NCBI GenBank assembly: GCA_015654705.1
Contig: JAATGL010000038.1
Span: 1 to 42,742 of the forward strand
Length of the DNA stretch: 42,742 nt
From: Alphaproteobacteria bacterium
GTDB taxonomy: Bacteria; Pseudomonadota; Alphaproteobacteria; Micropepsales; Micropepsaceae
Reading direction: 5' to 3'
In this document: one piece after another, positions 2,327-40,245 of the stretch
How positions within the stretch are numbered: the stretch's first letter is position 1
Layout of the letters: the number at the start of each line of letters is the position of its first letter
Position numbers and translations under genes: made by a program
Notes under the pieces: model-generated
Database searches by the model: none
The model's input: only the letters and a program-made list of their open reading frames with translations
What the model was told of the DNA's origin: nothing

Positions 2327-3556
2327 TCAAGTTCCACCTCCAAACAGCGGAACGGCGCCCGACTGGTGCAGGCGGTCGATCTCGGCGTCGGCGAATCCGA
2401 TTTCCTGCAGGATCTCCTTGCCGTGCTCGCCGAGTTGCGGAGCGAGAGACGGCTTCACCTTGTCCGCGCCGAGGATCTGTATCGGACTGCTCACGGTGCG
2501 CGCGCCGCTGCGGCCGGCCGCCTCCAGGGGCACGACGATGCCGTTTGCCGACAATTGCGGATCGTTGATGATCTCGTGCGCGATCTGCACCACCCCGAAG
2601 ATGACGCGACTGTCGCTCAGCACCTTCTTCCAATGGGCGAGCGGCTGGCTGGCGAACAGGGGATCCAGGATTTCGACGAGCTGCGCCGCGTTGGCGGCGC
2701 GCTTGTCATCGGCGAAGCGCGGGTCCTGCAGAAGCTCGGGCTTGCCGATGGCCTTCGCGAAACCGGGCCAATCCTTGCGCTGGGCCGCGACGAGAAGGAT
2801 CCAGCGTTTGTCGGACGTCTGATATGGGTTGAGCAGCGCGTTCGGCGGGGCCTTGCGATCGTGCTGCGGAAAGAAGTGGCCGCCATTGAGGCCGCCTTCG
2901 ACCCAACAAGCGGCAGCCCATATGCCGTTGGCGATCAGCGAGGTCGAAACGTGACTGCCCTTGCCGGTCGTGGCGCGCACATAGAGCGCCGTCACGATCG
3001 CCGCATAGAGGGTCGTCGCCGTCGCGTGATCGCCGATGCCGGGAATGGGCAGCGTCGGCGGACTGCCGGCATCGTGCGTCACCTCCATCAATCCGGATCG
3101 CGCCCAATAGGCGGTGATGTCGAAGCCGGGCGTGTCCGCCTCCGGCCCCTCGGAGCCGTAGCCGGTGATGTCGGCATAGATCAGTTTCGGGTTGAGCGGC
3201 TCCAAAGCTTCGTAGGTGACGCAGAGCGCCGCCTTGACGCGCGGCGGAAAATTCACGACGACGACATCCGCCCAGCGAACCAGCCGCGCAAGCACGTCCT
3301 TCGCCTCGGCCGATTTCAGATCGATCGCGATGCTGCGCTTGTTCCGATTGGTCAGCTGCCAGGCATAATTGATGTCGGTCACGGGATTGGGCGGTGTCGT
3401 CGAAAAGAACCGATACGCGTCGCCGGTGCCGGGCGGCTCCACTTTTATGACGTCGGCGCCGAAATCCGCGAGAATGGTGGTGGCGGCGGGCCCAGCGATA
3501 TAGCTCGCAAGATCGAGCACCTTCAGGTCCGAGAAAATATATTTGCCGGCGGTCAT
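2327..3556 (-). CDS. CaiB/BaiF family III CoA-transferase
   Basis: A 409-aa formyl-CoA:oxalate/carnitine-type CoA transferase that would move CoA from a donor thioester to a carboxylate. The N-terminus has [32 protein letters not shown], the family signature (split here: LASYIAGP, then [12 protein letters not shown]). The catalytic Asp is expected in [25 protein letters not shown] and the small interlocking domain follow. Length is normal for the family. Start ATG 3556 has GAGGA nine bases upstream. It follows the enoyl-CoA hydratase and precedes the decarboxylase-like gene on the same strand, so it probably activates the pathway substrate as its CoA ester. The acid used cannot be told. Confidence 0.9.
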
Positions 3557-15871: not shown

Positions 15872-17329
15872 TTGGTCCGGCCGATCCACATCGCCGCCTC
15901 ATTGGTCGCCATCTTCTGCGCCTTTGCCGCCAAGGCCGAGCCGGTCAATCCGCTGGCGTTCGGGGCGGAAATGCGTTGCACATCCGATCCGGTTGCCGCG
16001 ACCACCGTTCCGGGCTGGAACATCGTCGCCGGCAGCCCCGCGCTGGATTGCGCCAATGCCCTGCCGGCTGAATGGCCGGCCGCGAACGCACCGCGCGTGG
16101 TGATCAGCAGCGGACCCTATGGCACGAGCATTCTGCAACGGCTGATACCGCTCGAACGGGCCGCCTCCGCCGCTCCGGAGAATTTTATGCTCTCGGGCTG
16201 GTTCGGCGCTGCGGGCGGCGGCCATGAACGCACAGTTCTAAACGCGCAATTCCTCGATGAATCCGGTCGCACGATGGGGGCGCCCATCGTGCTTACCGGG
16301 CCGGAAGCGAAGATCTGGCCGATCCATTTCGCGCCGCGCACCTATTCCGGCGCCATCCCGGGCAAAGCACGGACTCTGCAGCTGGAGCTGCGCCTGTCCG
16401 GCCTGACCAGCGGCAAGGCCACCACCTATGCCGCCGGCCTGCGCCTTGAAACGAACCCGCCCATGTCCTTCCCGCCGGTTACGCCGCCCGCAATGCATGT
16501 CCCGCGCTTCGATCACGTGTTCCTCATCATGATGGAGAACACCGACTACGGTCAGGTCATCGGCGATACGGTCGATGCGCCGTTCATCAACCAGCTCGCC
16601 GCGCGCGGCACGCTGCTCGCCAATTATCAGGCCGTGTACCATCCGAGCGACGAGAATTACATGGCCATCGCGGGCGGCGAAGGCCTCATCAGCGGCGCGG
16701 TCTATTTTCCCAACATCCATATCGCGGCGCCCCATCTGGGCGATCTTCTCGAAGCGGAGGGCAAGAGTTGGAAAACCTATGAAGAGGGCATGGGCGTGCC
16801 CTGCAACACGACCACGAAATTCGACAAGCACTATGAGCCCGACGACGCGCCCTTCATCAATTTCGTAAACATCCAGCGCGATCCGACCCGCTGCCGCGCG
16901 CATCTGGTCGATCTGAGCGAATGGCCGAAAGACCTGCGCTTGGCCGGTACGACGCCCGCCTTCGCGTGGCTCGCCGCGGACGATTACAACGACGGTGAAT
17001 TGCCGGGAAACGGATCGTCCAAGAGTCTGCGCGTGCAGGACCGATGGCTCAGAACCACCCTTGCGCCGCTGTTCGCCGCGCCGGCCTGGCGCGACCAGAA
17101 AAGCGTCCTGATCCTCACCTGGGACGAGTCCAACACGGTCCTCAACAACCATATCGCGACCATCGTAATGGGATCGCAGGGCCTGGTGAAGGCGGGCCAT
17201 GTCAGCCGGCGGCGCTATGACCACTACAGCAGCGCCCGCACCATCGAAGCGGCGCTCGGGCTGCCCAGCCTGACCACCAATGACGGCTTCGCATCGACGT
17301 TCGACGATGCGTTCGCAGGCGGGCGCTGA
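15872..17329 (+). CDS. Secreted phosphoesterase-family protein with N-terminal beta domain
   Basis: A 485-aa exported protein starting at TTG 15872 (GAGGG upstream). Signal peptide to about residue 22. Residues about 25-200 resemble a carbohydrate-binding-like beta-sandwich (GWNIVAGSPALDCAN, FMLSGWFGAAGGG). The rest is a phosphoesterase (PF04185, acid phosphatase/phospholipase C fold): HVFLIMMENTDYGQVIGD with the metal-binding Glu/Asn, YHPSDENYMAIAGG, LTWDESN and YDHYSSARTIEAALGLP. It should hydrolyse phosphomonoesters or phosphodiesters outside the cytoplasm. It ends 8 bp before the convergent TonB-dependent receptor gene. Confidence 0.85.
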   Translation: MVRPIHIAASLVAIFCAFAAKAEPVNPLAFGAEMRCTSDPVAATTVPGWNIVAGSPALDCANALPAEWPAANAPRVVISSGPYGTSILQRLIPLERAASAAPENFMLSGWFGAAGGGHERTVLNAQFLDESGRTMGAPIVLTGPEAKIWPIHFAPRTYSGAIPGKARTLQLELRLSGLTSGKATTYAAGLRLETNPPMSFPPVTPPAMHVPRFDHVFLIMMENTDYGQVIGDTVDAPFINQLAARGTLLANYQAVYHPSDENYMAIAGGEGLISGAVYFPNIHIAAPHLGDLLEAEGKSWKTYEEGMGVPCNTTTKFDKHYEPDDAPFINFVNIQRDPTRCRAHLVDLSEWPKDLRLAGTTPAFAWLAADDYNDGELPGNGSSKSLRVQDRWLRTTLAPLFAAPAWRDQKSVLILTWDESNTVLNNHIATIVMGSQGLVKAGHVSRRRYDHYSSARTIEAALGLPSLTTNDGFASTFDDAFAGGR

Positions 17330-17337
17330 ACCCTCCG

Positions 17338-19596
17338 CTAGAATTTCCGCGACAGCGTCAGGCCGACCGTGCGCGGCTGGTTCGGCGTTATCTGATGTTC
17401 GTAAATGGCCGGAGAGAGATAGAGAACGGCGCGTTCGTCGAAGGCATTGTTGACGAACAGGTTGGCGCTCCACTGGCCCGCTTCGGCGCCCAACTGGAAA
17501 TTGGCCGTCGTATAGGCGGGCAAATGCCCGACCCCGACCGGATCGATGTCGTTGACCGAGTCGCCGGTCCGGCTGACATCACCCCGCAGGTGGCCAGCGG
17601 CGCCGATCCAATCGATGGAAAAATCATATTCGGCATAGAGCGAGAATTTATAGCGCGGCGTCACCGGCAGCCGGCTGCCGACCGGCGCCTCGACGAAGCT
17701 GCTGGGCTGGGTGAGCGTGGCGTCGAGATAGGTCGCGCCGCCGCCGACCGTGACTTGCGGAATCGGACGCGCCTCGAACTCCGCCTCGACGCCCTTCGAC
17801 TCGGCCTGACCGACATTGGCCACGACGTAATAAAAGGTCGACGGATCGGGATTGAGGATCGAAAGCTGGAAGTTCTTCCACTGCATCCAGTAGGCAGACA
17901 GGTTCAGTTGCAGGCGATTGTCGAACCATTCGGTCTTGCTGCCTACCTCATAATTGTAAAGGTGATCCGGCCCGTATTGCAGCGGCACCGCGAGCCTCGG
18001 CTTCTGCCGGTTTGCCCCGCCCAGGCGGAAGCCCTCCGAATAGAGCGCGTAAAGCAGGATCGAGGGAGTCCATTTGTAGGACAGCTCAACCTTCGGCGTC
18101 TCGCCGTTCTGCGGCGCCCTCAGATGCGAGTTTTCCACCGGCAGGCCCTTCGGAATTTCCGTGTAGATCTTCCCATTGTTGTGGGCCACGAAATAGCGCC
18201 CGCCGATGGTCGCGGTCAGCTGATCGGTGATTTCGTAGCTGAGCTCGCCGAAAAGGGAAACCTGCGAGCGGTCGTAGGTGACCGTCTGGTGGAAATAGAC
18301 GTCGGTGGGCTCGCTCAGATAGGCCGCGACCGATGCGTAGGACGGCGTGAGCGTGTAGTTGTTGACGTAGGAATCGGAGAGCGTGCTCGTCCGGTCGTTC
18401 TCATAGAAGCCGCCGATAATCCAACTCCAGCGCGAGCCGCTCTTGGAGGTCAGGCGCACCTCGTTGCTGAAGCGTTCGTTCTTCAGGTGAAAATCGTAAT
18501 AGCCTTTGGGGTCGGGCCCGAAATTGTAGAAGGAGTCGTAGGTCGGATAGGCCGCGGCAAGGCCGGTCAGATACTGCATATAAGCGGTGTTATCGACCAT
18601 GCTGTTGATATGCCGGCGGAAATAGCCGCTGGCGGCGACAAGATCGGCAAAGCCGACATCCGCGTTCACCGTGAGCGCAAATTGGTCCCACCTGTCCTTG
18701 AAGAACTCGTCGTAGAAACGAACCGTCTGAAGATCTCCGACCGTGGGATCGAAAGACGACGGACCAGACTGATCGGTGTTCTGGAAGATATAACTTCCGG
18801 TCACCGAGACGTTGCTGTTGATCTGCCATTTGAGCTCGGCGCGGACGCCGCTCTCGCGCTCCGGGTTGACATCCTTCCTGGCGATGGCGGCGTTGCTGTT
18901 CGTTCCGCCGGGCGTGGTGCCGCGAACATTGTCGATGAAGCCGGGCGTCAAGGTGTTGAACGCGGCCATGCGAAACGCCAGCGTGTCCTCGACGATCGGA
19001 ACGTTCACCATCCCGTTGACGTCATAACCCAGTCCGCCATGATCGACGGAGGTGCCGGTGCCTTCCAGCGAACCTTCGAAGGTGTCGAGATCCGGCTTGT
19101 TGGTGATGATGCGGATCGTTCCGGACTCGGAACTGGCGCCGAACAGCGTGCCTTGGGGGCCCGGCAACACCTCGATGCGTTCGATGTCGAACAGATGCGG
19201 GTCGGGCATCAGCCCGTGGGCGGTCAGGGGCTGCTCGTCCAGGTAAAGAGCGGCGGGTGATTCCAGCGTGCGGTCGCCGGTGCTGGCGGCGATGCCGCGT
19301 ATGACCAGCGTCGTCTGTCCGGGCCCCGCCTCGTTGAACGACACGCTGGGCGCGAAACGGGCGTAATCGTCGAACTTCTGAAGATTGAGATCCTTGATCT
19401 TCTGATTGCTGAAGGCCTGGAGCGTGACCGGCGTATCCTGGGCGATTTCCGGGCGCTTGCGCGCCGTCACCACGACCGTCTCGATTCCCTGCGGCGTTTC
19501 CGGCGCGGGATCGGCCCGGCCCATCGACGCGGCGGCGATGAGGGCCGCGAGCGAAACGCTTCCCAATAACGCGGCGTGTCGGCGACGCGAACGCAT
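17338..19596 (-). CDS. TonB-dependent outer-membrane receptor
   Basis: A 752-aa receptor. Signal peptide, then a TonB-box-like ETVVVTARK near residue 40, a plug domain (LVIRGIAASTG, YLDEQPLT, IERIEVLPGPQGTLFGASSESGTIRIITNKP), and a beta-barrel with repeated aromatic strands ending in SRKF with C-terminal Phe. No N-terminal STN signalling domain, so it is a plain transporter. The plug is of the type seen in sphingomonad/caulobacter receptors. AGGGGG lies just before ATG 19596. It is divergent from the beta-hydroxylase gene; the 165-bp gap may hold a shared promoter. The ligand is unknown; the neighbouring side-chain-modifying enzymes make a modified peptide or protein-bound ligand worth considering. 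Confidence 0.92.
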   Translation of the reverse strand: MRSRRRHAALLGSVSLAALIAAASMGRADPAPETPQGIETVVVTARKRPEIAQDTPVTLQAFSNQKIKDLNLQKFDDYARFAPSVSFNEAGPGQTTLVIRGIAASTGDRTLESPAALYLDEQPLTAHGLMPDPHLFDIERIEVLPGPQGTLFGASSESGTIRIITNKPDLDTFEGSLEGTGTSVDHGGLGYDVNGMVNVPIVEDTLAFRMAAFNTLTPGFIDNVRGTTPGGTNSNAAIARKDVNPERESGVRAELKWQINSNVSVTGSYIFQNTDQSGPSSFDPTVGDLQTVRFYDEFFKDRWDQFALTVNADVGFADLVAASGYFRRHINSMVDNTAYMQYLTGLAAAYPTYDSFYNFGPDPKGYYDFHLKNERFSNEVRLTSKSGSRWSWIIGGFYENDRTSTLSDSYVNNYTLTPSYASVAAYLSEPTDVYFHQTVTYDRSQVSLFGELSYEITDQLTATIGGRYFVAHNNGKIYTEIPKGLPVENSHLRAPQNGETPKVELSYKWTPSILLYALYSEGFRLGGANRQKPRLAVPLQYGPDHLYNYEVGSKTEWFDNRLQLNLSAYWMQWKNFQLSILNPDPSTFYYVVANVGQAESKGVEAEFEARPIPQVTVGGGATYLDATLTQPSSFVEAPVGSRLPVTPRYKFSLYAEYDFSIDWIGAAGHLRGDVSRTGDSVNDIDPVGVGHLPAYTTANFQLGAEAGQWSANLFVNNAFDERAVLYLSPAIYEHQITPNQPRTVGLTLSRKF

Positions 19597-19761
19597 GCTG
19601 CCCCCTGAAAACTCATCATGCGGCAGCGCGCCATGCGCGACAGCCCCCGCTCATGTTATGAACGCGGGGAAATCCGGTGCCCAGTGAAGCTTTGGTGAAA
19701 GCGCCACTGCGCAACGCCGGAATTGAAATCGTGAACGTCTTCGATCGCCGGACGGAACAGG

Positions 19762-20307
19762 ATGGATATCGACGTGCCCTTTCGTTGCCTCGGCCCGGCC
19801 GCCTCCGAAGCGCTGACCGCGGCCATTCTGTCGCAGCCGGAGGAAGCCTGGCTGGAGCAGCCGCATCGTCAGCGCGCCTATGACGTTCATCACCAGACCG
19901 CCTCCATCGTCCTGCTGTTCTGCGATGAGGGCTGGCCCAACGGCCAAGTGTTCCGGGAGCCCGGATGGGCGCGGCTGGCCGACACCGCCTTGCCGCTCGT
20001 CGAAACGATCATCGCGCGGCACTATCGGCCCGGCGGCACCGTGCTGCGGGCCATGGCGGCCAGGCTGAAAGCCGGCGGCCGCATCGCCCCGCATATCGAC
20101 TCGCTGGAATCGTTTCGGATGGGCCACCGCATTCATGTACCGATCACCACTCATCCGCGCGTGCGTTTCACCATCGACGGCAAGCCGCTGACGATGCAGA
20201 CGGGCAACGCCTATGAGATCAACAATCAGAAAATGCATAGCGTCATGAATGCGGGCAGCGACGACCGCATCACCTTCATCTTCGATTACGTCGCGCCGGC
20301 ATCGTGA
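19762..20307 (+). CDS. Aspartyl/asparaginyl beta-hydroxylase-type dioxygenase
   Basis: A 181-aa Fe(II)/2-oxoglutarate dioxygenase of the aspartyl/asparaginyl beta-hydroxylase family. Iron ligands HxD are His111 and Asp113 (RIAPHIDS) with distal His159 in NNQKMHSVMN; Arg169 in DDRITFIFDY would bind 2-oxoglutarate. HRIHVPI (122-128) is a family signature. It probably hydroxylates an Asp/Asn or related side chain. No signal peptide. Its stop overlaps the next gene's start, so the two products are co-translated. Divergent from the TonB receptor. The peptide substrate is not encoded recognisably nearby. Confidence 0.88.
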   Translation: MDIDVPFRCLGPAASEALTAAILSQPEEAWLEQPHRQRAYDVHHQTASIVLLFCDEGWPNGQVFREPGWARLADTALPLVETIIARHYRPGGTVLRAMAARLKAGGRIAPHIDSLESFRMGHRIHVPITTHPRVRFTIDGKPLTMQTGNAYEINNQKMHSVMNAGSDDRITFIFDYVAPAS

Positions 20308-21221
20308 CCAGGCTTCTCGCCACCTCCGTCGTCCGCGGCAGCGTCCAGGGGGAGAGCCATGGCGGCGCCTTTCTCATCGACCTTCAGGCCGAAACCGTCG
20401 AGCAGAAACTCGACTGGAACACCGCCGATATCGCATGGGAGGGGCGCGGCTGGGACCGCGGCCTGCGCGGCATCGCCTTCGGTGACGACGCGGTGCTGAT
20501 CGCCGCCAGCGCCGAGCTCACCATGTTCACGCCGGATTTCGGCTCGCGCCGCGCCTGGTCCAATCCCTATCTGCGCCATGCGCACGAAATCTCGCGCTGG
20601 CGCCAGATGCTCTACATGACCTCGACCGGGTTCGACGCCATCCTCGGTTTCGATCTCTCCGTTTGCGCCTTCACCTTTGGGCTCGCCTTGAGCGCCCAGG
20701 GCGAGCGCATCGGCTGGCGCGTCTTCGATCCGCGCCAGCCCGGCGGCCCGCCGCCGTGCAACACCTTTCATCTGAACAGCGTCACCGCGACCGATTACGG
20801 GCTATTCATCGCCGGGCTCAATTCGCCGGGCCTCTTGCGCTTCGACGGCAAGGCGCTGGCCGTCGTGGCGAGCCTGCCGGCCGGCACGCACAATGCCCAG
20901 CCCTTCGGCGGCGGCCTTCTGTTCAACGATACGCGCGCCAATCTGGTGCGCCACGTCACCGCCGCGCGCCAACGCCAGTTCTTCGTCCCCTCTTACGACG
21001 AGGCCTCGCTGACCCACCGCGACGCCGACCGCAGCGGCATCGCGCGGCAGGCCTTCGCCCGCGGACTGTGCGCGATCGGCGAGACGATCGTCGCGGCGGG
21101 TTCTTCGCCCTCCACCATCGCCCTGCACGATCTGGCCGCCAACAAAACGACGCGGGTGATCACGCTGTCGCGCGATCTGCGCAACGCCATTCACGGACTG
21201 GAAGTCTGGCCCTTCGATTAA
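20304..21221 (+). CDS. Conserved propeller-like protein, coupled to the hydroxylase
   Basis: A 305-aa protein without signal peptide whose GTG start overlaps the hydroxylase stop by four bases (GTGA), a sign of translational coupling. Repeated beta units are visible: RGIAFGDDAVLIAASAELTM, NSVTATDYGLFIAGLNSPGL, ARGLCAIGETIVAAGSSPST, each ending in a short L/F-R-F-D or H-D-L turn, as in six-bladed propellers. It recalls the TIGR03032/DUF4915 type of hypothetical protein, but I am not sure of that. GTHNAQPFGGGLLFNDT is a notable conserved-looking segment. It probably assists the hydroxylase or binds its substrate. It overlaps the convergent sulfotransferase gene by four bases at the stop. Confidence 0.7.
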   Translation: MTRLLATSVVRGSVQGESHGGAFLIDLQAETVEQKLDWNTADIAWEGRGWDRGLRGIAFGDDAVLIAASAELTMFTPDFGSRRAWSNPYLRHAHEISRWRQMLYMTSTGFDAILGFDLSVCAFTFGLALSAQGERIGWRVFDPRQPGGPPPCNTFHLNSVTATDYGLFIAGLNSPGLLRFDGKALAVVASLPAGTHNAQPFGGGLLFNDTRANLVRHVTAARQRQFFVPSYDEASLTHRDADRSGIARQAFARGLCAIGETIVAAGSSPSTIALHDLAANKTTRVITLSRDLRNAIHGLEVWPFD

Positions 21222-23002
21222 ACGCCGGCCGCGCGCACATGATCGGGAAGCTCCGCCAGCGCGGGCGCCAAATGCCGTTCGAGATCTTCGAGGAACGGCG
21301 CAAAACGCCGCCAGCTCTGCAGCGAACTCCTGTAGACGGGCCGGCGCACCTGCTCCGAACTGGCCGTCTTCACCGCCCGCTCGGTGCGATGAAAATCCAG
21401 GCAGGCATCCTCCCAGGCAAGGCCGCAATGGGCGAGGATGCGCCGCGTCTGGCCCTCCTGATCGGCAAGCATCGCTTCATAGTCCACGCGCAGCACCGTT
21501 CCCGGCAAGACGCGGTCCCAATGTTTCATGATCCGCGCATATTGCAGATAATATTCGGCGAGTTCGAACAGGTCGTAGGTGAAGGCCTGACCCTTGGCGA
21601 AAAGCTGCTTGAACGAGCCCATGCAGCTGTCCATGGGATGACGTCGCGCGTCGATCACCTTTGCATTCGGCAGGATGAGCTTGAGAAAGCCGATGGTCGG
21701 GAAATTGTTGGGCATCTTGTCCGTGAAATGGACGGCCGGGCCCCGTTGCCAGCGTGTTTGCTCAATATAGGCGCGTCCGAGCGCCGCGAAATCCGCTTCC
21801 TCCAGATCGCGCAAGGTCTCCGGATAGCTCACACCGTCGGAACGGTATTTGCCCGTCGCCATGGCGAGCTGGCCGAGATTCGGCAACTCGCTGGTGCCGT
21901 CGACCTGGCTGTGGCTGGCCAGAATCTGCTCGATCAGCGTCGAACCCGACCGCGGCAGGCCGACGATGAAGATCGGCGCGGAATCGTCGTGGCCGAAGCC
22001 CGCGCGCTCGGCCAGGAATTTTTCGTCGAACAGACCGATGATGTGATCGTTGAGCGTCTCCGTTTGCACGGGATCGTAGCTGACGCGGGTCCGCTGTTCC
22101 CGGTTGCCGTCGCAATAGAAGGCGAACGCACGGGCGAAATCCCCTTCGTCTTCGTGAGCCTTGCCGAGCGCGAACAGAATGGCGATGCGATTGTCGGGCG
22201 ACAGCGCCGCCTGTTCGAGCAGCCGTTCCATGCGCATGATTTCGTCGGCGGCGAACCGATAGGTCTTGAGGTTGGCGAGACTCCACCAGACCTGGCCGTA
22301 ATCGGGCCTAGCATCGAGACACATGCGATAGGCCTCGATCGCTTCGCGCTGCCGGCCAATGGTCTTGAGCACATGCCCCTTGCCGATCAGCGCCCCGGGA
22401 TGAGCGGGCTGGCGTTCCAGCGCCGTGTCGTAACTTTGCTCCGCCCGCTCGTGCGCACCCGCCGCCGCCAGCGCGTTGCCGAGATTGAAATGCGACTGCG
22501 CGTCTCTGGGATCGAGCGCGGTCGCGCGCTGGAACGCATCGATGGCTTCGTCCAACCGGTCGCGCTCATAAAGCACGCTGCCGAGGTTGTTCCAGGCGAA
22601 GATAAAATCCGGCGCCAGCGCCAGGCAGCGACGAAGCTGGGTCTCGGCTTCGTCCAGATGCCCCGTCTGCGCCAGAGCCAGTGCGTAGAGACGCAGCGCA
22701 TCGACCGAATCCGGCTCGCGGGACAGAATTGCGCGATAGAGCGCAAGCGCGCCTTCGATATCGCCCGTTTGTTGCAATGTCGCCGCTTCGGCGAGCGCTG
22801 CGTGCGCTGGCGAAAGGGCAAAATACCGATCGAAGGCGATATCGGCTTCGGCCGCGCGGCCCGAGCGCAGGAGCGACTGTCCAAGCCCCCTCCAAGCCGC
22901 GGCATCGTCGGGCCGGTCCGCGCAAGCCTTCCGCCATATCGCCACCGCGCCTGCGCGGTCGCCGCTTGCCGCCGGCCGTCGTGCCTCCGCCTTGCTCTTC
23001 AT
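21218..23002 (-). CDS. TPR-containing sulfotransferase
   Basis: A 594-aa cytoplasmic protein. Residues about 10-270 are tandem TPR helices with the usual W-x3-G/A-x2-A pattern (AWNNLGSVLYERDRLDEAI, SHFNLGNALAAAGAHERAE). A PAPS-dependent sulfotransferase domain follows: 5'-phosphosulfate loop FIVGLPRSGSTLIEQILASH near 347, and 3'-phosphate motif DARRHPMDSCMGSFKQ near 450. TPR-sulfotransferases are common in alphaproteobacteria; most have no known acceptor, and tyrosine or carbohydrate sulfation are both possible. It faces the hydroxylase/propeller pair tail to tail. Ribosome site before ATG 23002 is weak. Confidence 0.9.
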   Translation of the reverse strand: MKSKAEARRPAASGDRAGAVAIWRKACADRPDDAAAWRGLGQSLLRSGRAAEADIAFDRYFALSPAHAALAEAATLQQTGDIEGALALYRAILSREPDSVDALRLYALALAQTGHLDEAETQLRRCLALAPDFIFAWNNLGSVLYERDRLDEAIDAFQRATALDPRDAQSHFNLGNALAAAGAHERAEQSYDTALERQPAHPGALIGKGHVLKTIGRQREAIEAYRMCLDARPDYGQVWWSLANLKTYRFAADEIMRMERLLEQAALSPDNRIAILFALGKAHEDEGDFARAFAFYCDGNREQRTRVSYDPVQTETLNDHIIGLFDEKFLAERAGFGHDDSAPIFIVGLPRSGSTLIEQILASHSQVDGTSELPNLGQLAMATGKYRSDGVSYPETLRDLEEADFAALGRAYIEQTRWQRGPAVHFTDKMPNNFPTIGFLKLILPNAKVIDARRHPMDSCMGSFKQLFAKGQAFTYDLFELAEYYLQYARIMKHWDRVLPGTVLRVDYEAMLADQEGQTRRILAHCGLAWEDACLDFHRTERAVKTASSEQVRRPVYRSSLQSWRRFAPFLEDLERHLAPALAELPDHVRAAGV

Positions 23003-27768: not shown

Positions 27769-28176
27769 TCGACAAATCTCCACTCTTCGACCGCCCGCAA
27801 TTCGAAGCAAGCGGTCAGATGTTCGTTGCGCGAATGTTGGCGCGCGCAAGGAATGATCGGCGAAATGTACGACAGTTTCATGTTGCGCAGCCCCTTTCGT
27901 ACGCGCCGTCTCCGTCTCTCGCACGCCGGTTCCGTCAAAAGAATTTGTGGGGAGCGAACGCCAACATGAGAAAGCCCGCGATTCTTTCCGATCCATGAAG
28001 CACTACCTACAAAAGAATGGAGCGGTGCTAACGGAATTCAGTGCCTCTTCTTCATGTCCCATCGCCCGATCGTCATGCCCTCGTCACCGGTTCGCAACAG
28101 TCGGGGCGCATTTGTGCTTGACGCCGTGAGCAGAGGCTGCGGCTCCTCGTCAATCCGATTTCAAGGGGAAATCCAA
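27769..28176. other. 408-bp divergent intergenic region
   Basis: No convincing coding sequence. It separates the divergent small secreted protein and the large phosphoesterase, so it must hold two promoters. I looked for a Pho-box type direct repeat (CTGTCAT-like) and found only CTGTCGT-type partial matches on the minus strand, which I do not count. Confidence 0.5.
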
Positions 28177-30195
28177 ATGCAATCGACACGATCTTCTTTC
28201 AGGGCCGTGCTGCGAGGCGGCGTTGCCGCGCTCGCCGCGTTGCCCATGATCGCCCAAACCTGCCTCGCCGGCGCCACGACGTTTCACGGCGAGAAGGTAA
28301 TCAAGTCCGAAGGCGCTCCGCCCTCGCAGGTCCTGGTGCACAACATCAAAACCCCCATGGGCCGCAACGACAGCAAAACGACGACGCCGATCAAGCACGT
28401 CATCATCATCGTCGGAGAAAATCGCAGCTTCGATCATCTGTACGGGACCTATGTGTCTCCGTCCGGCGATCCGGTGCTGAACCTTTTCTCGGAAGGCATC
28501 GTCAAGGCGGACGGCACGCCGGGACCGAACTTCTCCAAGGCGCAGCAGATGCAGGCTTCCGACACGGACACGTTCAGCGTCAGTCCGGAGATCGCGGGCC
28601 CGTACAAGAAGCTTCCCGCGCCGAACCTGGCCTTTACGCCCGAAGCCACGAGCTATGCGGCCGCCCCCTGGGTCAACACCCAGGTCGCCGGTCAGTATGA
28701 TTACGGCCTGCTGAAGAAGGATCTGCCGGCCGCGACCGAGGGCGCCTCGGGCCTGCCGCAGGAGACGATCGACACGCGCATCAACAACGCCACCAAGCTG
28801 CCGTCCGGTCCGTTCCAGCTCTCGCCTGGCGTGGGCTCGGAAGACTATGCGGACAGCCCGGTGCATCGTTTCTACCAGATGTTCCAGCAGCTGGATTGCA
28901 ATGTCTCCTATGCGACCAAGGCGAATCCGAGCGGCTGCCGCGCCGATCTGTTTCCGTGGGTCGAGGTCACGATTGGAGCGGGCTCCAACGGCAACCCGCC
29001 GCCGAAGAACTTCAACGAAGAGACGACCCTTGAGGGCGCGACGTCGATGGGCTTCTACAACGTCCAGCAGGGCGATGCCCCCTACTTCAAGCAGCTCGCG
29101 GACCAGTACACGCTGCTCGACAATTATCACCAGCCCGCCAAGGGCGGCACGGGTCTCGACAGCATCTATCTCGGCTTCGCCGACGATATCTGGTACAGCG
29201 ACGGCAAGGGCAAGGCCCTGACGCCGCCGGCGAACCAGATCGAGAATCCCGATCCGATGGCGTCCACCAACAATTGGTATAGCCAGGACGGCTATTCGGG
29301 CGGCTCCTACAGCGAATGCTCGGATTCGGCGCAGAAGGGCGTGGCGTCGGTCAACGCCTATCTTTCGAGCGTCGGCGTGGATCCGAACTGCGAAGCCGGA
29401 CATTACTACCTTCTGAACAACTACAATCCCGGCTATGTGGGCAACGGCGATCTGGCCGCCAAGTCCCAGGGACCGTTCACGATCCCGCCTTCCTCGACGC
29501 CGTCGATCGCCGACGTGCTGAACAAGTACGACGTTTCCTGGGCCTATTACGGCGAAGCGTGGAACGCGTATGTCAACGATCCGAGCTACTACGCGGAAGG
29601 TTCGGAATACTGCAACATCTGCAATCCCTTCCTCTATGAGACGCAGATCATGCGGGGCAAGAACAAGGACGGCGTCCCCTACCGCATCGCCAATCTTCAC
29701 GACACGACCGACCTTTATGATGCTCTGAGGACCGGCGAACTTCCGGCCGTTTCCTATGTGAAGCCGAGCGGCGTCAACGACGGACATCCGGAGTCGTCGC
29801 AGGTTGCGGAGCTCGAGGGCTTCATCAAGAAGATCGTCACCGAAGTGCAGGCGAACAAGAAGCTCGCCAACAGCACCGCCATCCTGATCACCTTCGACGA
29901 AGGCGGCGGCTACTACGACTCGGGCTACGTCCAGCAGCTCGACTTCTTCGGCGACGGCACGCGCATCCCGATGCTCATCGTCTCGCCGTGGACCAAGGGC
30001 GGCCATATCTCGCACGTCTACAGCGATCATGCCTCCATCCCGAAGTTCATCGAGGCGAACTGGGGCCTTCCGACCATCACCGGCCGCAGCCGCGACAACA
30101 TGCCGAACCCGATCACCGATCCGAAGGATCCTTACGTGCCGACCAACGGCCGGTCGATCAGCGACATGATGGCCGCGTTCAACTTCCACTCGTAA
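28177..30195 (+). CDS. Secreted acid phosphatase/phospholipase C-family phosphoesterase (large)
   Basis: A 672-aa exported hydrolase of the PF04185 family. Signal peptide to about residue 31 (TCLAGA). HVIIIVGENRSFDHLYGTYV gives metal ligands Glu81/Asn82. Further motifs are QGDAPYFKQLADQYTLLDNYHQ, AKGGTGLDSIYLGFADDIWY, FDEGGGYYDSG and DHASIPKFIEANWGLP. Extra Gly/Tyr/Asn-rich loops make it longer than the 485-aa relative at 15872. Start ATG 28177 has AAGGGGAA upstream. A strong terminator follows 20 bp after the stop, so it is probably transcribed alone. Substrate could be phosphomonoesters or phospholipids. Confidence 0.88.
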   Translation: MQSTRSSFRAVLRGGVAALAALPMIAQTCLAGATTFHGEKVIKSEGAPPSQVLVHNIKTPMGRNDSKTTTPIKHVIIIVGENRSFDHLYGTYVSPSGDPVLNLFSEGIVKADGTPGPNFSKAQQMQASDTDTFSVSPEIAGPYKKLPAPNLAFTPEATSYAAAPWVNTQVAGQYDYGLLKKDLPAATEGASGLPQETIDTRINNATKLPSGPFQLSPGVGSEDYADSPVHRFYQMFQQLDCNVSYATKANPSGCRADLFPWVEVTIGAGSNGNPPPKNFNEETTLEGATSMGFYNVQQGDAPYFKQLADQYTLLDNYHQPAKGGTGLDSIYLGFADDIWYSDGKGKALTPPANQIENPDPMASTNNWYSQDGYSGGSYSECSDSAQKGVASVNAYLSSVGVDPNCEAGHYYLLNNYNPGYVGNGDLAAKSQGPFTIPPSSTPSIADVLNKYDVSWAYYGEAWNAYVNDPSYYAEGSEYCNICNPFLYETQIMRGKNKDGVPYRIANLHDTTDLYDALRTGELPAVSYVKPSGVNDGHPESSQVAELEGFIKKIVTEVQANKKLANSTAILITFDEGGGYYDSGYVQQLDFFGDGTRIPMLIVSPWTKGGHISHVYSDHASIPKFIEANWGLPTITGRSRDNMPNPITDPKDPYVPTNGRSISDMMAAFNFHS

Positions 30196-35877: not shown

Positions 35878-36249
35878 TTGAGCCTTTCCGATCTCGCCTC
35901 AATCGGCAGTCTCGTGAGCAGCGTTGCCGTTCTAGCGGCCCTGAACTTTGTCGAACTTCAACTCCGCCAAAATACCAGGGCAATTCGCGCGACGGCATCA
36001 CAAGCACATTCGGCGAATTGGCAGCAGATCGTCGCGCCTATCGTCGAGAACACCGAGGTTGCACGGGTCTGGCGCATTGGCCTCCAAGTGACAGTCCTAC
36101 CTCATGAATGGACAGAGGATAAGCGTCGCGGATCGCCGACAAATAATGATGCGGCGGGCGTTCGGCACCCATGTAGTTTTCCGCGTGAACTTCAAAGAAG
36201 CCAATATCGGGACCGTGTCCAGGATCACGCGATAGTGTTCTGTCTTTAA
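35878..36249 (+). CDS. Short membrane-anchored hypothetical protein, possibly truncated
   Basis: About 123 aa: one membrane span ([19 protein letters not shown]) followed by a cytoplasmic helix ([32 protein letters not shown]). The N-terminal pattern [12 protein letters not shown]...[10 protein letters not shown] is that of a widespread proteobacterial family of unknown function with a full length near 170-200 aa. After about residue 75 the sequence loses resemblance and turns Arg/Pro-rich, so the 3' part is probably out of frame or replaced. TTG 35878 has GAGG upstream. It follows the damaged hydrolase. Confidence 0.5.
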
Positions 36250-36443
36250 CCCGAGGCCTGCACGAAGTGGAAGCGTAAAATCGCAGGTGTAACTATGAAT
36301 CATTGGCGGTGAAAGTTCTCAATGGCGAAACACGATTTCTTTCGTGTTGCCAAACCGGGCGAGTTCGCCGCACTGAAATTTTTGTTTTGAGTTTTACAAC
36401 CGCACAGCTCGCAGTCTCGGCAGACGATATCCAAGCGACTTTG

Positions 36444-37825
36444 CTAGCCTGATGGGTTCGGTTTGATGACCAATCCCGCCTTTGCAAGAGAATTTTCGAA
36501 CACAATTTCGTTTCGCATCGACTTGAACGTCGGCTCTATTTTGAGAGCAATGTTTGCCGGTTCTCGCCGCGATAGGCTGATTGCAAGATATTCTTTCGCA
36601 TTTGGCATGTCATCGAGCGCTGCGTAGGTCTTCGCCAATGCATAGGCCGGTTCTTGTCCTAACGCGAAGAGTCTGCGCTGTTCCACCAGCAAGCCGCGCA
36701 ACATTCCTGTTCGTCCGTCCACCGCCAATCCCTTCACGCCTAATGTAGCCATTCTCGAGCCGTTGGCGTCATGGCGGGCAACAGCGGTCAATTCCAGTTC
36801 CCGCAAGTACGAAGCATCGTTTCCAATGTCGAACCATATTGCCTGGAGATAGTCATGTGGCGAAGAGAAGAGGGGCTGATCGTTCTCGAGTTGTGTCAGC
36901 AACTCGATCGCTTGCTTTTCCTGTCCCGCGTAAAAAAGTATTAGCCCCTTGTCGGCGAGGATAGCAGCCGACTCCGAATCGAGGCTTTGCGCCTTTGTTA
37001 TCTCGATCAATGCGGGGGCGAATTCGCCAAGGGTCATGAGACATGTGGCATACCATTCGTGCGTAACGGCGCTTTCCGGATCGAGCGCAAGCGCAATTTT
37101 GAATTCTTTTGGGCTGCAGATGGATTTCGTGACCAATAAAATAAATCGAATGCCAACGCTGCGTGGGCGCTTGCCAGTGAAGGATCGAGCGCTATCGCTT
37201 GTATGGCCGCTTCCTCTGCCTTTGGATACAGTTGCTCCGGCGGCAATGCAGAGAATTCGCGCTGAAGGTTATAAGCGGCAGCAAGACCAGCATAGGCCTT
37301 TGCAAAATCGGGAGCGCGTGCAATCGCTTGATGAAAGTCGGCAATGGAGCGTGCGAGGCTTGCAGGCGTTCGGGTCTGCCATTCATGTAGACCGGAAACA
37401 TACAGCTCGTTGACGGCAGCGCTTGGAAGGCGGTCACGTATCCGCGTAGATTTAGCTGGCTGTACATGAGCCACCGTTAGAGCAACAAATGCCAACGCGA
37501 CTGCTGTCGCGATCACGGCAAGAACTCCCAGACCGGCTGCAGGCCAGCGCTTGAACCGCCATGTTACTTGGGGCTCCGGTAGACTTGCGCTACCCGCTAT
37601 GACTTCCGGAACTCGCGCTTGCTCTTCACCATGCCCTCGCAACCACGCTTCGATTTCATCAACGTAAGCAAAGACAGAGGCGTTGGCCGCACCCGGATAG
37701 CGCCGCACGGGAAGGCCGCGCGATTGCTCCCAACGTTTCACGGTGCGTTCGCCGCGTCCAAGAAAGGCAGCGATCTCTTTCCAGGAAGTAAGCCTTTGCC
37801 CAACGGAGTTCCTGCCATTTTCCAC
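36444..37825 (-). pseudogene. HTH-membrane-TPR regulator broken by one base
   Basis: One gene in two frames. From GTG 37825 (AGGGA upstream) the first part has a helix-turn-helix (LTSWKEIAAFLGRGERTVKR, WEQSRGLPVRRYPG), a membrane span (GLGVLAVIATAVALAFVALT) and TPR repeats (AKAYAGLAAAYNLQREF). It goes out of frame at 37107-37110. The second part (EFKIALALDPESAVTHEWYA onward to the stop at 36444) continues the TPR series at once. Joining them needs one extra A in the run CCCAAAAGAATTC, giving AQKEFKIALALDP, a perfect TPR continuation. Function: probably a transcription factor with a periplasmic TPR sensor, as in CadC-like one-component regulators. Confidence 0.75.
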
Positions 37826-38070
37826 GTCGATGTCCCTAGATGGCCTGATCCGGCCCGCATTGCCATTTGCCGATCAAGGCTTAGCCAGGCATCTTATCAT
37901 GGATTTTTTCAGTGCCGTTGGATTTGCGTTAACTGAGCCACTCTCTTGAGAGCGGTCACCGCTCTTTCGTTCGTTGTGCCCGGTTCGGGAAAACGCTCGT
38001 TTCTTCGACTAAGACACGCCAGTGTTCCCTGGTGGGGGCGCAGGTTCAACATTCACTAGGGGTAAATGCC

Positions 38071-39282
38071 ATGCGCTCTTTGCTTTCTCACGTCGCTGTC
38101 GCCGCATTGCTGGCAACGTCCGCCGCGGCTGCCTCACAGCCGGGCGCGCAATTGGGCGCTGCACCCGTAGGCGGCCCGTCTCATAAAACGCCTCCTGTAA
38201 GTGATGGGAGTTCCGGAAGTTTCAATGCGCAGTTCGGTGGTGGTAGTTGTCTGGTCTGGTTGAATACGGACACCGGCCAAGTTTGGTGCTCGGATAGCGG
38301 CGGCTTCATCTTATTTACTGTGCCATATAAAGTGGTGAAGTGGAAGAAACAGACGTTTCACGCCTATAATTTTACAGACATGACCGTGCAACCCACTGTC
38401 AAATTGACCATCTATGGCACTCAGCCGGCGATGTTTCTTGCGAATCAGGACATATCTTTCTCTGGACAGTTCACTATTGCAGCGAACGCCGGCTCTGGTG
38501 GAGTGGCGGCCACATCTGAAACTCAGGACTTAAAAGGCGGGGATGGCGCCTCGCCGGCGGGTGTCGCGGGGGGGGGCGGTGGATACGGTCCCAGCGGCAG
38601 CGTTACGGGCGGTGGCTGTGTTGAATACTATACGTCAGCTGGTGGCGGAGGCGGCAGCAGCACTTTGCATTCCGGTAAAGCTGGCCATCAAGGCGATTTT
38701 CCGTGGGATGCGGGCAACCCTATTCATGACGTGCAGGGAGATGGCGGAGCGGTCGAGCCTTCGAAATTGTACGGCGGTAGCGGCGGGGGCGCTGGGGGCG
38801 CAAGTTCCTATGCAGGCGATTTTTATGCATTTCCAGGAGCTGATGGTGGTGGTGCTGTTGTCATATCGACGACGGGCTCAATCGAAATAACTTCGACCGG
38901 CGTTATCGACGCCAGCGGTCATGATGGAATTGTGGCGGCTTATAACACTGGCTCCAGCGGCGGCGGTGGCGCTGGCAGTGAATGGTTCTATGCGGAAGGC
39001 AGCTTTTCGAATTCGGGAGTTTTGAATTTGCACGGCGGTGCCGGGGGCAAAAGCAAGTACACATCCGGATGCTCTAAGACGAAAACTATAGAAGGCCCCG
39101 ATGGCGGTGACGGTGCAGGCGGACATATGCGCGTTAACGCTGGGACTTTCGATAACACTGGTCTTATTGACGTCTCAGGCGGCGCGGGCACATCCGACAG
39201 TTCCGGCGCGGTGACCGTCGAGGGCCGTGTGCTCCACCGTGGACGGATCAAAGGTTTATCCGAATGGGGCGCAATGCCTTGA
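38071..39282 (+). CDS. Glycine-rich secreted surface protein
   Basis: A 403-aa protein. Signal peptide MRSLLSHVAVAALLATSAAA-AS; then about 130 residues of beta-rich sequence (SCLVWLNTDTGQVWCSD; TVKLTIYGTQPAMFLAN); then a long Gly/Ser-rich region with runs such as GGGGGYGPSG and SGGGGAG, and repeated beta units (SIEITSTGVIDASGHDG; NSGVLNLHGGAGG; NTGLIDVSGGAG) like a passenger or adhesin beta-helix. No transporter barrel or LPXTG-like anchor is seen. AGGGG lies eight bases before ATG 38071. Codon use is less GC-rich than that of the genes in the left half, a sign of recent acquisition. Confidence 0.75.
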   Translation: MRSLLSHVAVAALLATSAAAASQPGAQLGAAPVGGPSHKTPPVSDGSSGSFNAQFGGGSCLVWLNTDTGQVWCSDSGGFILFTVPYKVVKWKKQTFHAYNFTDMTVQPTVKLTIYGTQPAMFLANQDISFSGQFTIAANAGSGGVAATSETQDLKGGDGASPAGVAGGGGGYGPSGSVTGGGCVEYYTSAGGGGGSSTLHSGKAGHQGDFPWDAGNPIHDVQGDGGAVEPSKLYGGSGGGAGGASSYAGDFYAFPGADGGGAVVISTTGSIEITSTGVIDASGHDGIVAAYNTGSSGGGGAGSEWFYAEGSFSNSGVLNLHGGAGGKSKYTSGCSKTKTIEGPDGGDGAGGHMRVNAGTFDNTGLIDVSGGAGTSDSSGAVTVEGRVLHRGRIKGLSEWGAMP

Positions 39283-39291
39283 TTTGACCTT

Positions 39292-39352
39292 CCGCTCCTG
39301 TCCGTGGCGCTGTACTCGACCTATCTTTTGAGGTCGAGCGCGACGGGAGCGG
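39292..39352. terminator. Long imperfect hairpin after the glycine-rich gene
   Basis: Outer arms CCGCTCCTGTC (39292-39302) and GACGGGAGCGG (39342-39352), inner arms CTCGACCT (39315-39322) and AGGTCGAG (39331-39338), loop ATCTTTTG. It begins 10 bp after the stop. There is no T run, so it could be a terminator, an mRNA-stabilising hairpin or a REP-like palindrome. Confidence 0.5.
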
Positions 39353-39546
39353 TAACGTCCGCGCTGCCGACGTGGGCTACTTCGTGACGCTTCGTAATTC
39401 TGTCAGACGATACGGCGCCTCTCCGAACAATGTGAAAAGTATATGATAACAAGCCAGCGCGCCGCGTGGCGAGGGATGCTTCTTATGATCGACGCCGACA
39501 ACCGCAACATGCAGACCTTCGCCTGGCAGTAACTCGGAGTAGCAAC

Positions 39547-40245
39547 ATGCGTCCACGATCAACCGTTCGTTCATATGGCGCCCTAATCGGTTATCTGTTC
39601 TTTATGACAGTATTATCGGCGACCCCAGCGCCCGCGAAGATGACGATTGCTAGCGACGGCGGCTCCGATGCCGCTGCTCGTCTTGTTGGAACATGGTCAA
39701 TGGGCGCGCCTCAATCTGGAATAGCCTTCTCTTTCAACTCCAATGGCACTTATGTAAACGTCGCGGGCGGGCCCGCAGGCTCACAGCGTCTTTGGGGCCG
39801 ATATCGCGCAACACAGGTTTCGGCATCCGTGGTTCATATAGACTTCGACGTTCAGGGTTGGGCCCCGCGGCAATTGTGCGCTCAGGTCATTGGCGGTGCC
39901 AGAGCTTGCAAACCCTATTCACCGGTCTACAGCAAGAGCGCCGATCTGACGTTCACGTCGCAATCGAGTTTCACAGCCGCGCAAAGTCGCTTTCATCGAG
40001 ATTCATCGCCCTATCTCCTGCGGATGCAGGTGCCGGATGTTGTCGAACGTCGGATCGCAGGCATGGGTGGAATTCGCCAGCCCGTCATGCCGACCCTTCA
40101 TCCATATCAAACGCCCGGAGGTCCCGGAAGCGTCGGCGCAATGCGCTATGACGACCAGCATCTGCAGCCTTATCGCACCTGTGCCGTCAATAATGGCTCG
40201 GTCAATACCGACCAGCAAGGTGTCCAACACTGTACGAATAATTGA
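39547..40245 (+). CDS. Secreted protein, lipocalin-like in its middle part
   Basis: A 232-aa protein: signal peptide to APAKA/KM around residue 31, then ARLVGTWSMGAPQSGIAFSF and NGTYVNVAGGPAGSQRLWGRYR, the start of a lipocalin-like / calycin-type barrel (LxGTW, GxYxxxG). The C-terminal 60 residues are Pro/Gly/Tyr-rich and end in two Cys (RTCAVNNG, VQHCTNN). CGGAG lies seven bases before ATG 39547. Function unknown. Composition resembles the neighbouring glycine-rich gene. Confidence 0.65.
   Translation: MRPRSTVRSYGALIGYLFFMTVLSATPAPAKMTIASDGGSDAAARLVGTWSMGAPQSGIAFSFNSNGTYVNVAGGPAGSQRLWGRYRATQVSASVVHIDFDVQGWAPRQLCAQVIGGARACKPYSPVYSKSADLTFTSQSSFTAAQSRFHRDSSPYLLRMQVPDVVERRIAGMGGIRQPVMPTLHPYQTPGGPGSVGAMRYDDQHLQPYRTCAVNNGSVNTDQQGVQHCTNN

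Follow-up and report, generated by a model that had tools for sequence, protein, structure and literature searches.

A gene module joining a TonB-dependent receptor to a hydroxylase, a propeller protein and a sulfotransferase, with a possible role in receptor modification

Introduction

Why would the gene of an outer-membrane receptor be kept together with those of a hydroxylase, a propeller protein and a sulfotransferase? The question is raised by a four-gene locus at positions 17338–23002 of contig JAATGL010000038.1 (GenBank assembly GCA_015654705.1) from an alphaproteobacterium of the family Micropepsaceae, of which we analyzed a stretch of 42,742 nucleotides, hereafter the window. The genes encode a TonB-dependent receptor (TBDR), an Asp/Asn β-hydroxylase (AspH), a propeller protein (PROP) and a sulfotransferase with tetratricopeptide repeats (TPR-ST). 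An earlier prediction, made from the window sequence, had proposed that the two enzymes and the propeller protein act on one and the same peptide or protein, either a ligand of the receptor or the receptor itself. Here we show that the four genes are one evolutionary module, which is widespread and occurs in many aquatic bacteria. We propose, with a probability of about one half, that the module serves to hydroxylate and sulfate a protein destined for export, most likely the receptor, while it is still in the cytosol.

Results

The four genes form one evolutionary module

GTDB species genomes were scanned with a PROP alignment, which gave 37 loci, or 38 with the window, and profiles of all four families were run on every open reading frame (ORF) of each locus. 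The loci were divided post hoc by PROP identity into 29 canonical loci (at least 46%) and 9 others (at most 42%). Among the 29 canonical loci, window included, a TBDR is present in 27, a TPR-ST in 24 and AspH in 20, and the totals over all 38 loci are the same. Neighborhoods of PROP homologs had been put forward as a check in the original prediction, and the outcome is strongly positive. Both loci that miss the TBDR (L041, L053) lie at contig ends, as do three of the five that miss the TPR-ST (L043, L050, L073); in the other two, 0.9 kb (L052) or 10 kb on one side (L053) is left. The gene set is kept while its order varies, with seven orders among the canonical loci. The window, L042, L044, L045, L058 and L075 are examples of a divergent TBDR with AspH-PROP facing TPR-ST. 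The other orders are TBDR-PROP facing TPR-ST (L046, L054, L055), TBDR-AspH-PROP in one direction (L051), TPR-ST-TBDR-PROP (L059), AspH-PROP facing TPR-ST-TBDR (L060), PROP facing TBDR-TPR-ST and AspH (L061–L064), and TBDR-PROP facing TPR-ST with AspH behind (L057, L065). In L008, which is apparently the contig of L042, the four genes are arranged as in the window; its PROP is 56% identical, and the flanks differ by eye. The commonest other neighbor clusters occur in at most 6 of the 38 loci.

PROP was found in three of 385 Alphaproteobacteria genomes, the window's own included, and, in what is apparently the same set of genomes, AspH subfamily members above 90 bits occur in exactly these three (G000, G255, G343), the next matches reaching 76–86 bits; candidates were only partly scored in genomes with many, so that weak relatives may be missed. 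The AspH of G255 is split over two contig ends. Since G255 and G343 share one genus, the three genomes represent two independent lineages. Nine canonical loci lack a nearby AspH; in eight of their genomes that were searched (that of L073 was left out), an AspH of at least 300 bits lies elsewhere in six, the genomes of L052 and L055 having none at that score. No member of the AspH subfamily was found in the seven genomes of L067–L071, L074 and L076, and the Halieaceae genome of L066 contains a second, canonical TBDR-AspH-PROP locus (L250). The proteins also co-diverge: Mantel correlations for the six protein pairs are 0.77–0.93 (16–23 loci each, leaving out the partial loci L041, L047, L055, L065 and L073), none of 2000 permutations reaches the observed values, and shared species history contributes to them. 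From the neighborhood of PROP homologs, the phylogenetic co-occurrence and the co-divergence taken together, we conclude that the module is real.

Shared ancestry, or hitch-hiking on a mobile segment, could in principle assemble such a set with no functional link. None of 36 other genomes of the window's genus yielded PROP, a patchy distribution that makes horizontal spread of the locus probable; a plasmid collection gave no PROP match. However, the partner set survives the seven gene orders and different flanks, AspH co-occurs with PROP even when the two are not adjacent, and searches led by the receptor recover the same link (see below). We therefore regard chance association of this kind as very improbable.

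A receptor clade accompanies the sulfotransferase

The TBDR (17338–19596, minus strand, 752 residues, with plug and barrel) matches the Pfam families TonB_dep_Rec_b-barrel (PF00593, 124 bits) and Plug (PF07715), both over the cut-off. Its AlphaFold2 model has a predicted local distance difference test score (pLDDT) of 81.4, and a signal peptide is visible at its N-terminus on inspection by eye. As originally described, it is divergent from AspH; 165 bp separate the two (19597–19761), and no conserved small ORF was found in this region.

Searches with a receptor alignment were intended to lessen the bias of entry through PROP. Six genomes of the window's genus, all TPR-ST carriers, gave 17 receptor matches. 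The ten best of these (at least 453 bits, window included) all adjoin a TPR-ST, one of which has an in-frame stop; the seven weaker ones have no adjoining TPR-ST, and two of them adjoin AspH. Eight gammaproteobacterial genomes with PROP loci gave 70 matches. Beyond the eight entry loci, 40 of the 62 neighborhoods were read, comprising 22 of the 23 at 372 bits or more (the one left out is a fragment on G427:C550) and 18 of the 39 weaker ones. A TPR-ST adjoins 15 of the 22 receptors of at least 372 bits, in two cases (L188, L211) only as contig-end fragments of 58 and 24 bits, and none of the 18 receptors below 310 bits, apart from a 35-bit match in L237. Three of the 15 (L205–L207) also carry PROP, recovered here without PROP as the query.

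A tree of 102 receptors contains a clade of 55 with a support of 1.0, of which 51 have a TPR-ST in their locus; 26 of the 55 (type A) had entered through PROP and 21 (type B) through sulfotransferase searches. Three of the remaining four (L043, L050, L052) are cut by a contig end at most 0.9 kb from PROP, and the fourth (L208) has no TPR-ST. In the whole clade, this receptor (L208:4150–6555) is the only one that lacks an adjoining TPR-ST although several kb flank it on either side. Eight more distant TPR-ST-linked receptors lie outside the clade, and the receptors of PROP loci (29/29) fall into one clade of the same tree (support 0.717).

Three residues in predicted extracellular loops, Asn235, Tyr339 and Asp335, were considered as modified sites. 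They looked diagnostic when 47 clade receptors were compared with five unlinked ones; in the wider set they proved to be clade markers and were rejected. Column 339 of two receptors accompanied by AspH only differs between the narrower and the wider receptor alignment.

The sulfotransferase domain resembles protein-tyrosine sulfotransferases

TPR-ST (21218–23002, minus strand, 594 residues) faces AspH-PROP and overlaps PROP tail-to-tail by 4 bp (21218–21221), as had been read from the window and as the ORF coordinates bear out. It matches Sulfotransfer_3 (PF13469, 176 bits) and TPR repeats. The TPR-STs of PROP loci form one clade (25/25, support 0.979) with no intruder among 89 sequences. The motif for the 5'-phosphosulfate of 3'-phosphoadenosine 5'-phosphosulfate (PAPS), PRSGST, is invariant in 18/18 TPR-STs, and so is E372 (21887–21889, minus strand), 21 residues past the arginine of the PAPS motif. 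E372 aligns ungapped to the glutamate of tyrosylprotein sulfotransferases (TPSTs) in the alignment with structure 8w5z, and with a 3-residue gap just before it in the alignment with TPST2. We take this glutamate to be the counterpart of the catalytic base of TPST2, in whose numbering Glu99 and Arg78 are the residues concerned. The catalytic base is given as H or E in one passage of PMC9372746.

When solved structures were searched with the single sequence, the seven best matches were all protein-tyrosine sulfotransferases (E 1.3e-7 to 1.5e-5), with CurM at E 0.2. The profile search ranked 8w5z first (E 2.7e-14), followed by TPST1 (2e-13), CurM (1e-10), TPST2 (1.9e-9) and SULT1A1 (7e-4). The sulfotransferase domain (21407–21976, minus strand) thus appears to be of the protein-tyrosine type: among solved sulfotransferases, TPSTs are its closest relatives.

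Within the window's genus TPR-STs are common, being present in 30 of 41 genomes. We read 40 other TPR-ST loci of the genus, and in 25 of them a TBDR belongs to the same run of genes; L150 is counted here through a PF00593 match and L142, L144 and L148 through coordinates, while L161, whose TBDR lies one gene further, is excluded. Another seven (L132, L134, L161–L164, L166) adjoin a small protein that looks exported by eye. TPR-ST tends to adjoin the gene of an exported protein, and the same tendency is stated for bacterial TPST genes in a passage of PMC9372746, from unpublished observations cited there.

Small exported-looking proteins of 183–189 residues lie beside TPR-ST arrays at L029:1074–1628, L132:3249–3806 and L134:2150–2701 and 2731–3300. 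Those of L029 (the window's own genome), L132 and L134 have in common a tyrosine-rich C-terminal tail, GHYQNDYH(V/L)Y, which makes them candidate sulfation substrates of a sister system. Searches for this protein gave eight matches in 3 of 41 genomes of the genus; the four close ones (L257–L260) adjoin a TPR-ST, and the four weaker relatives (L261–L264) have no TPR-ST within about 1.5 kb. As a general substrate test the tyrosine-tail proteins were therefore set aside, the association holding for the close family only.

Hydroxylase and sulfotransferase domains are fused in other genomes

AspH (19762–20307, plus strand, 181 residues) is of the 2-oxoglutarate/Fe(II) type and represents a module-specific subfamily; it matches Asp_Arg_Hydrox (PF05118) with 42.3 bits (cut-off 22.6). 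The iron ligands named in the original prediction, H111 and D113 of the HxD motif (20092–20100, plus strand) and H159 (20236–20238, plus strand), are conserved in 17, 16 and 17 of 17 homologs, respectively, the remaining cell at D113 being an X. A weak resemblance to TIGR04531, a putative nonproteinogenic amino acid hydroxylase, was also seen (E 9e-4, 18.7 bits, cut-off 300).

Asp_Arg_Hydrox and Sulfotransfer_3 occur in a single protein in Asticcacaulis (L004:11484–13274), in Diaphorobacter (L006:7788–9680) and in a gammaproteobacterium (L254:121–2013). The last of these fusions directly adjoins a TBDR, the first lies within a receptor-AspH-TPR-ST locus, and the neighbors of the Diaphorobacter fusion are a TIGR03032 propeller and a large protein whose annotation includes a sorting domain. 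Fusions of this kind suggest that the two activities have a substrate in common and that, possibly, the newly made hydroxyl is the group that is sulfated.

The propeller protein is a putative relative of arylsulfate sulfotransferases

PROP (20304–21221, plus strand, 305 residues) begins with a GTG that overlaps the TGA stop of AspH (GTGA, 20304–20307). None of the Pfam and NCBIfam models matches it, the TIGR03032 cut-off included. Its description as propeller-like was well founded: the AlphaFold2 model is a propeller (pLDDT 90.8, 25 strands), six-bladed by its strands and best fold matches. The six presumed inner strands begin at or near the invariant residues R55, H94/E95, H156/N158, H196/N197, R253 and R293/H297, and these residues might together form an axial active site. 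Fold searches returned mainly generic propellers, with nidogen and LDL-receptor-type propellers at Z up to 23.8 and arylsulfate sulfotransferases (ASSTs) at Z 20.8–21.1 in longer alignments of 265–269 residues; by Z the ASSTs tie with many others.

Two families were compared with PROP by profile methods. The first is TIGR03032/DUF4915, in which H(E/D), HxN, H and RGL motifs follow one another as they do in PROP. The hhalign comparison with TIGR03032 gave E 2.8e-4 at a probability of 41%, and the motif windows of PROP rank 1–3 of about 350; just 4 of 28 PROPs hit DUF4915 (best E 0.014), and BLASTP of PROP against TIGR03032 found no match. On this sequence evidence PROP is probably a distant relative of the family. 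By eye, TIGR03032 matches in other genomes (L078–L082, L084) adjoin FG-GAP-like large secreted proteins, type I secretion genes, or small 2OG-Fe-oxygenase-like proteins.

The second family is the ASSTs, for which we use the residue numbers His252, His356, Asn358 and Arg374; His356 and Asn358 are catalytic, and His436 is the nucleophile. His436 as an ASST site is supported by the title of entry 4p04, and an offset of 27 residues places all these sites on the right residue types in the E. coli sequence. Three PROP motifs, all on the plus strand and invariant in 28/28 homologs, were compared with them. In a profile of three ASSTs, the windows of H156-x-N158 (20769–20777) and H196-N197 (20889–20894) rank first of about 583 at the His356/Asn358 and His436 sites, respectively, with all four window sizes. 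H94-E95 (20583–20588) is a possible but weak counterpart of His252 (rank 20–54 of about 583). These windows were picked on the invariant histidines of PROP after the fold match, and the ranks are not a clean p-value. TIGR03032 windows rank 2–3, 2–6 and 9–23 against the same profile; when the profile is replaced by the single E. coli ASST sequence, first rank is kept at His356 only. In hhalign, His156-x-Asn158 of PROP was aligned unprompted to His356-x-Asn358. A lone ASST sequence compared with the PROP profile in hhalign yielded nothing useful, and no ASST model appears among the Pfam matches of 28 PROPs at E up to 5, a search in which HMMER filters drop most weak matches. We read the window ranks and the hhalign alignment as suggestive of homology to ASSTs, whose nucleophile PROP has possibly kept. 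A merely passive part for PROP is therefore improbable, and it is perhaps a cousin of the arylsulfate sulfotransferases.

In the non-canonical loci L066, L067, L068, L069 and L076, sulfotransferase genes are at most a few genes away from PROP; in L071 a sulfatase directly adjoins it, and L074 has neither. We therefore tie PROP to sulfation more than to hydroxylation. The homologs of L066–L071 and L076 come from Actinomycetota, Nitrospiraceae, Verrucomicrobia and some Gammaproteobacteria, and are near non-TPR sulfotransferases, glycosyltransferases or a sulfatase.

A ligand or another exported molecule as the substrate

If the receptor is not the substrate, the enzymes might produce or complete a secreted small molecule, such as a peptide or an amino-acid derivative bearing hydroxyl and sulfate groups, which the receptor would then retrieve; methanobactin operons are the model for this. 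These are described in part of PMC3621798 as combining TonB-dependent transporters with, in some groups, sulfotransferases. The TIGR04531 resemblance of AspH would suit such a product. We examined 1315 small ORFs from 28 loci as candidates for a small-peptide substrate gene; the eight largest clusters listed, each from 3–4 loci, look like shadow ORFs of near relatives and were rejected. No such gene had been visible in the window either, and the surroundings of the four genes in the 28 loci yielded no conserved small ORF, a search in which a very short divergent peptide could be missed. Nor were peptide or siderophore biosynthesis genes recognized among the recurrent neighbor clusters, of which only some were scanned, and a protein substrate is what the TPR arm and the tyrosylprotein-type domain indicate. 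We judge the ligand explanation unlikely.

Flanking genes offer a hint of another kind. Putrescine-type ABC transporter, gamma-glutamylputrescine-synthetase-like, PuuD-like or agmatinase genes were seen near the module or a lone AspH in L040, L044, L075, L045, L048, L058, L042, L244 and L245, whose proteins were partly scanned with models. Polyamine uptake as a general function was rejected: amine genes flank several gammaproteobacterial loci, and none was recognized beside the window locus. The amine neighbors are a mere hint at the type of ligand.

They bear on a further explanation, in which the target of the enzymes is an envelope glycan or some exported protein other than the receptor, and the linkage would reflect a nutrient, for example amines, that the modified surface and the receptor both serve; the PotFGHI-like and other amine genes beside several loci would agree with this. 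So would the TPR-STs of the genus that adjoin small exported proteins and not receptors, and the PROP homologs of Actinomycetota and others beside non-TPR sulfotransferases and glycosyltransferases. Yet the commonest other neighbor clusters are too rare to supply a third exported protein as a constant, and the constant partner is the receptor clade, not a glycan gene, which makes this explanation rather improbable in our view.

Genomic surroundings

The four genes, their overlaps and the metal ligands were all borne out at base level in the window sequence. Contamination of the contig was considered and is unlikely, its tetranucleotide usage resembling that of eleven other stretches of the same genome (r 0.96–0.98). 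This genome has 15 PF13469 and 5 PF05118 matches in total, so both families have further members there. Two phosphoesterase-family genes (PF04185) lie at 15872–17329 and 28054–30195, and between them, besides the four-gene locus, are a multicopper oxidase and a large catalase. At 36000–40000, GC content falls to 0.556 and the tetranucleotide correlation with the rest is 0.83; this part is possibly foreign or poorly coding.

Discussion

What, then, does the module act on? The linkage of enzymes, propeller and receptor asserted by the original prediction stands, as one module, and the function it proposed is plausible. Of its two alternatives, receptor or ligand, we favor the receptor for three reasons. 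AspH, PROP and TPR-ST look cytosolic, with no signal peptide visible at their N-termini on inspection by eye; no conserved precursor gene was found in the 28 loci examined; and of the 40 TPR-STs, 25 have a TBDR in the same gene run and 7 more stand beside a small exported-looking protein. In addition, the flanks differ, with putrescine-type transporter and gamma-glutamylputrescine-synthetase-like genes in some loci and an S9 peptidase or amidohydrolase in others. That these catabolic genes vary while the three proteins stay with the receptor is easier to reconcile with a substrate present at every locus, namely the receptor, than with a ligand peculiar to each locus.

In the mechanism that we propose, the receptor precursor would be the starting substrate in the cytosol. 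AspH would use 2-oxoglutarate, iron and O2 to hydroxylate an Asp or Asn side chain, and TPR-ST, with its TPR arm gripping the protein, would transfer a sulfuryl group from PAPS to the same protein, with either a Tyr or the hydroxyl just introduced as the acceptor. For PROP we envisage a part in sulfuryl transfer, as a second transfer, removal or proofreading, through a histidine-lined axial pocket. The modified receptor would be exported by Sec and then inserted, with ligand binding or uptake tuned by the modification.

Several observations weigh against receptor modification, or against the roles assigned to its parts. The genomes of the receptor searches were picked as known TPR-ST or PROP carriers, and 7 of the 22 fairly close receptors (at least 372 bits) have no adjoining TPR-ST. 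Asn235 and Tyr339 are also present in L208, which has no local TPR-ST, and absent from more distant linked receptors among the rows listed; the modification is a prediction for which candidate sites could not be pinned down. The nine loci with distant PROP (at most 42% identity) hold no TBDR, TPR-ST or AspH, and several of them lie near other sulfotransferases and glycosyltransferases, so that the role of PROP need not involve proteins. The relationship of PROP to ASSTs is open to similar doubt: the His94 window ranks poorly at His252, His436 of the E. coli ASST alone ranks 2–3 for PROP His196 ungapped and 21–26 gapped, the hhalign match of PROP to ASST is weak (E 0.0026, probability 12%), and the TIGR03032-ASST comparison is not significant. 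In the profile search, CurM, a polyketide-type sulfotransferase, places between TPST1 and TPST2, and at 8 of the 40 TPR-ST loci of the genus (L149, L156–L160, L165, L167) neither a TBDR nor a small exported protein was seen. Finally, the amine-catabolism neighbors of some loci would equally suit a ligand-centered explanation.

A more specific form of receptor modification can be offered only tentatively. The module might be a two-enzyme sulfuryl relay between the PAPS-dependent TPR-ST and a PAPS-independent, histidine-based PROP, with AspH adding an extra acceptor hydroxyl and the receptor being modified before it leaves the cytosol.

In animals and plants tyrosine sulfation is familiar; in bacteria, to our knowledge, it is documented for very few substrates. 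We found no description of the module, or of a receptor modification of this kind, in the open-licence papers searched. If our proposal is correct, the receptors of this clade would be the first outer-membrane transporters known to us with sulfated or β-hydroxylated side chains, and outer-membrane nutrient transporters would be tuned by covalent modification. With a receptor clade usually encoded beside TPR-ST, and a hydroxylase often present too, the study of protein sulfation in bacteria would gain many candidate natural substrates and a clear assay, and PROP would give the first lead on the function of TIGR03032/DUF4915-like propellers.

Known systems share parts of this design. RaxX-RaxST of Xanthomonas likewise places the gene of a cytosolic tyrosylprotein-type sulfotransferase beside that of an exported protein, and there the sulfotransferase acts in the cytoplasm on an exported peptide. 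In the present module, by contrast, no small exported peptide gene was found, the linked exported protein is a receptor, and a TPR arm, a hydroxylase and a propeller are added. Type I secretion genes, as in RaxX-RaxSTAB, were not recognized among the recurrent neighbors, for which no model-based search was made. Methanobactin operons resemble the module in combining a TonB-dependent transporter (MbnT) with a sulfotransferase (MbnS), according to part of PMC3621798. They differ in that MbnS belongs to PF00685 and presumably sulfonates a threonine of the precursor peptide, whereas no precursor gene was found here, where very short divergent ones could be missed. PROP shares with ASSTs the propeller fold, and in the three-ASST profile its His156 and His196 windows find their best match at His356 and His436, but it is about half as long, has no visible signal peptide, no Pfam ASST match and a weak profile match, and its His252 counterpart is doubtful. 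With TIGR03032/DUF4915 propellers it shares the motif order, and one of these (L006) adjoins an AspH-sulfotransferase fusion, although PROP has no NCBIfam match and BLASTP finds nothing between them. Receptor, hydroxylase and TPR-ST also stand together in the TBDR-sulfotransferase-AspH-TPR-ST loci of Asticcacaulis (L004) and of two members of the window's genus (L152, L154), which have another receptor type, an extra small sulfotransferase (PF03567 in L152), a second hydroxylase-type protein and no PROP.

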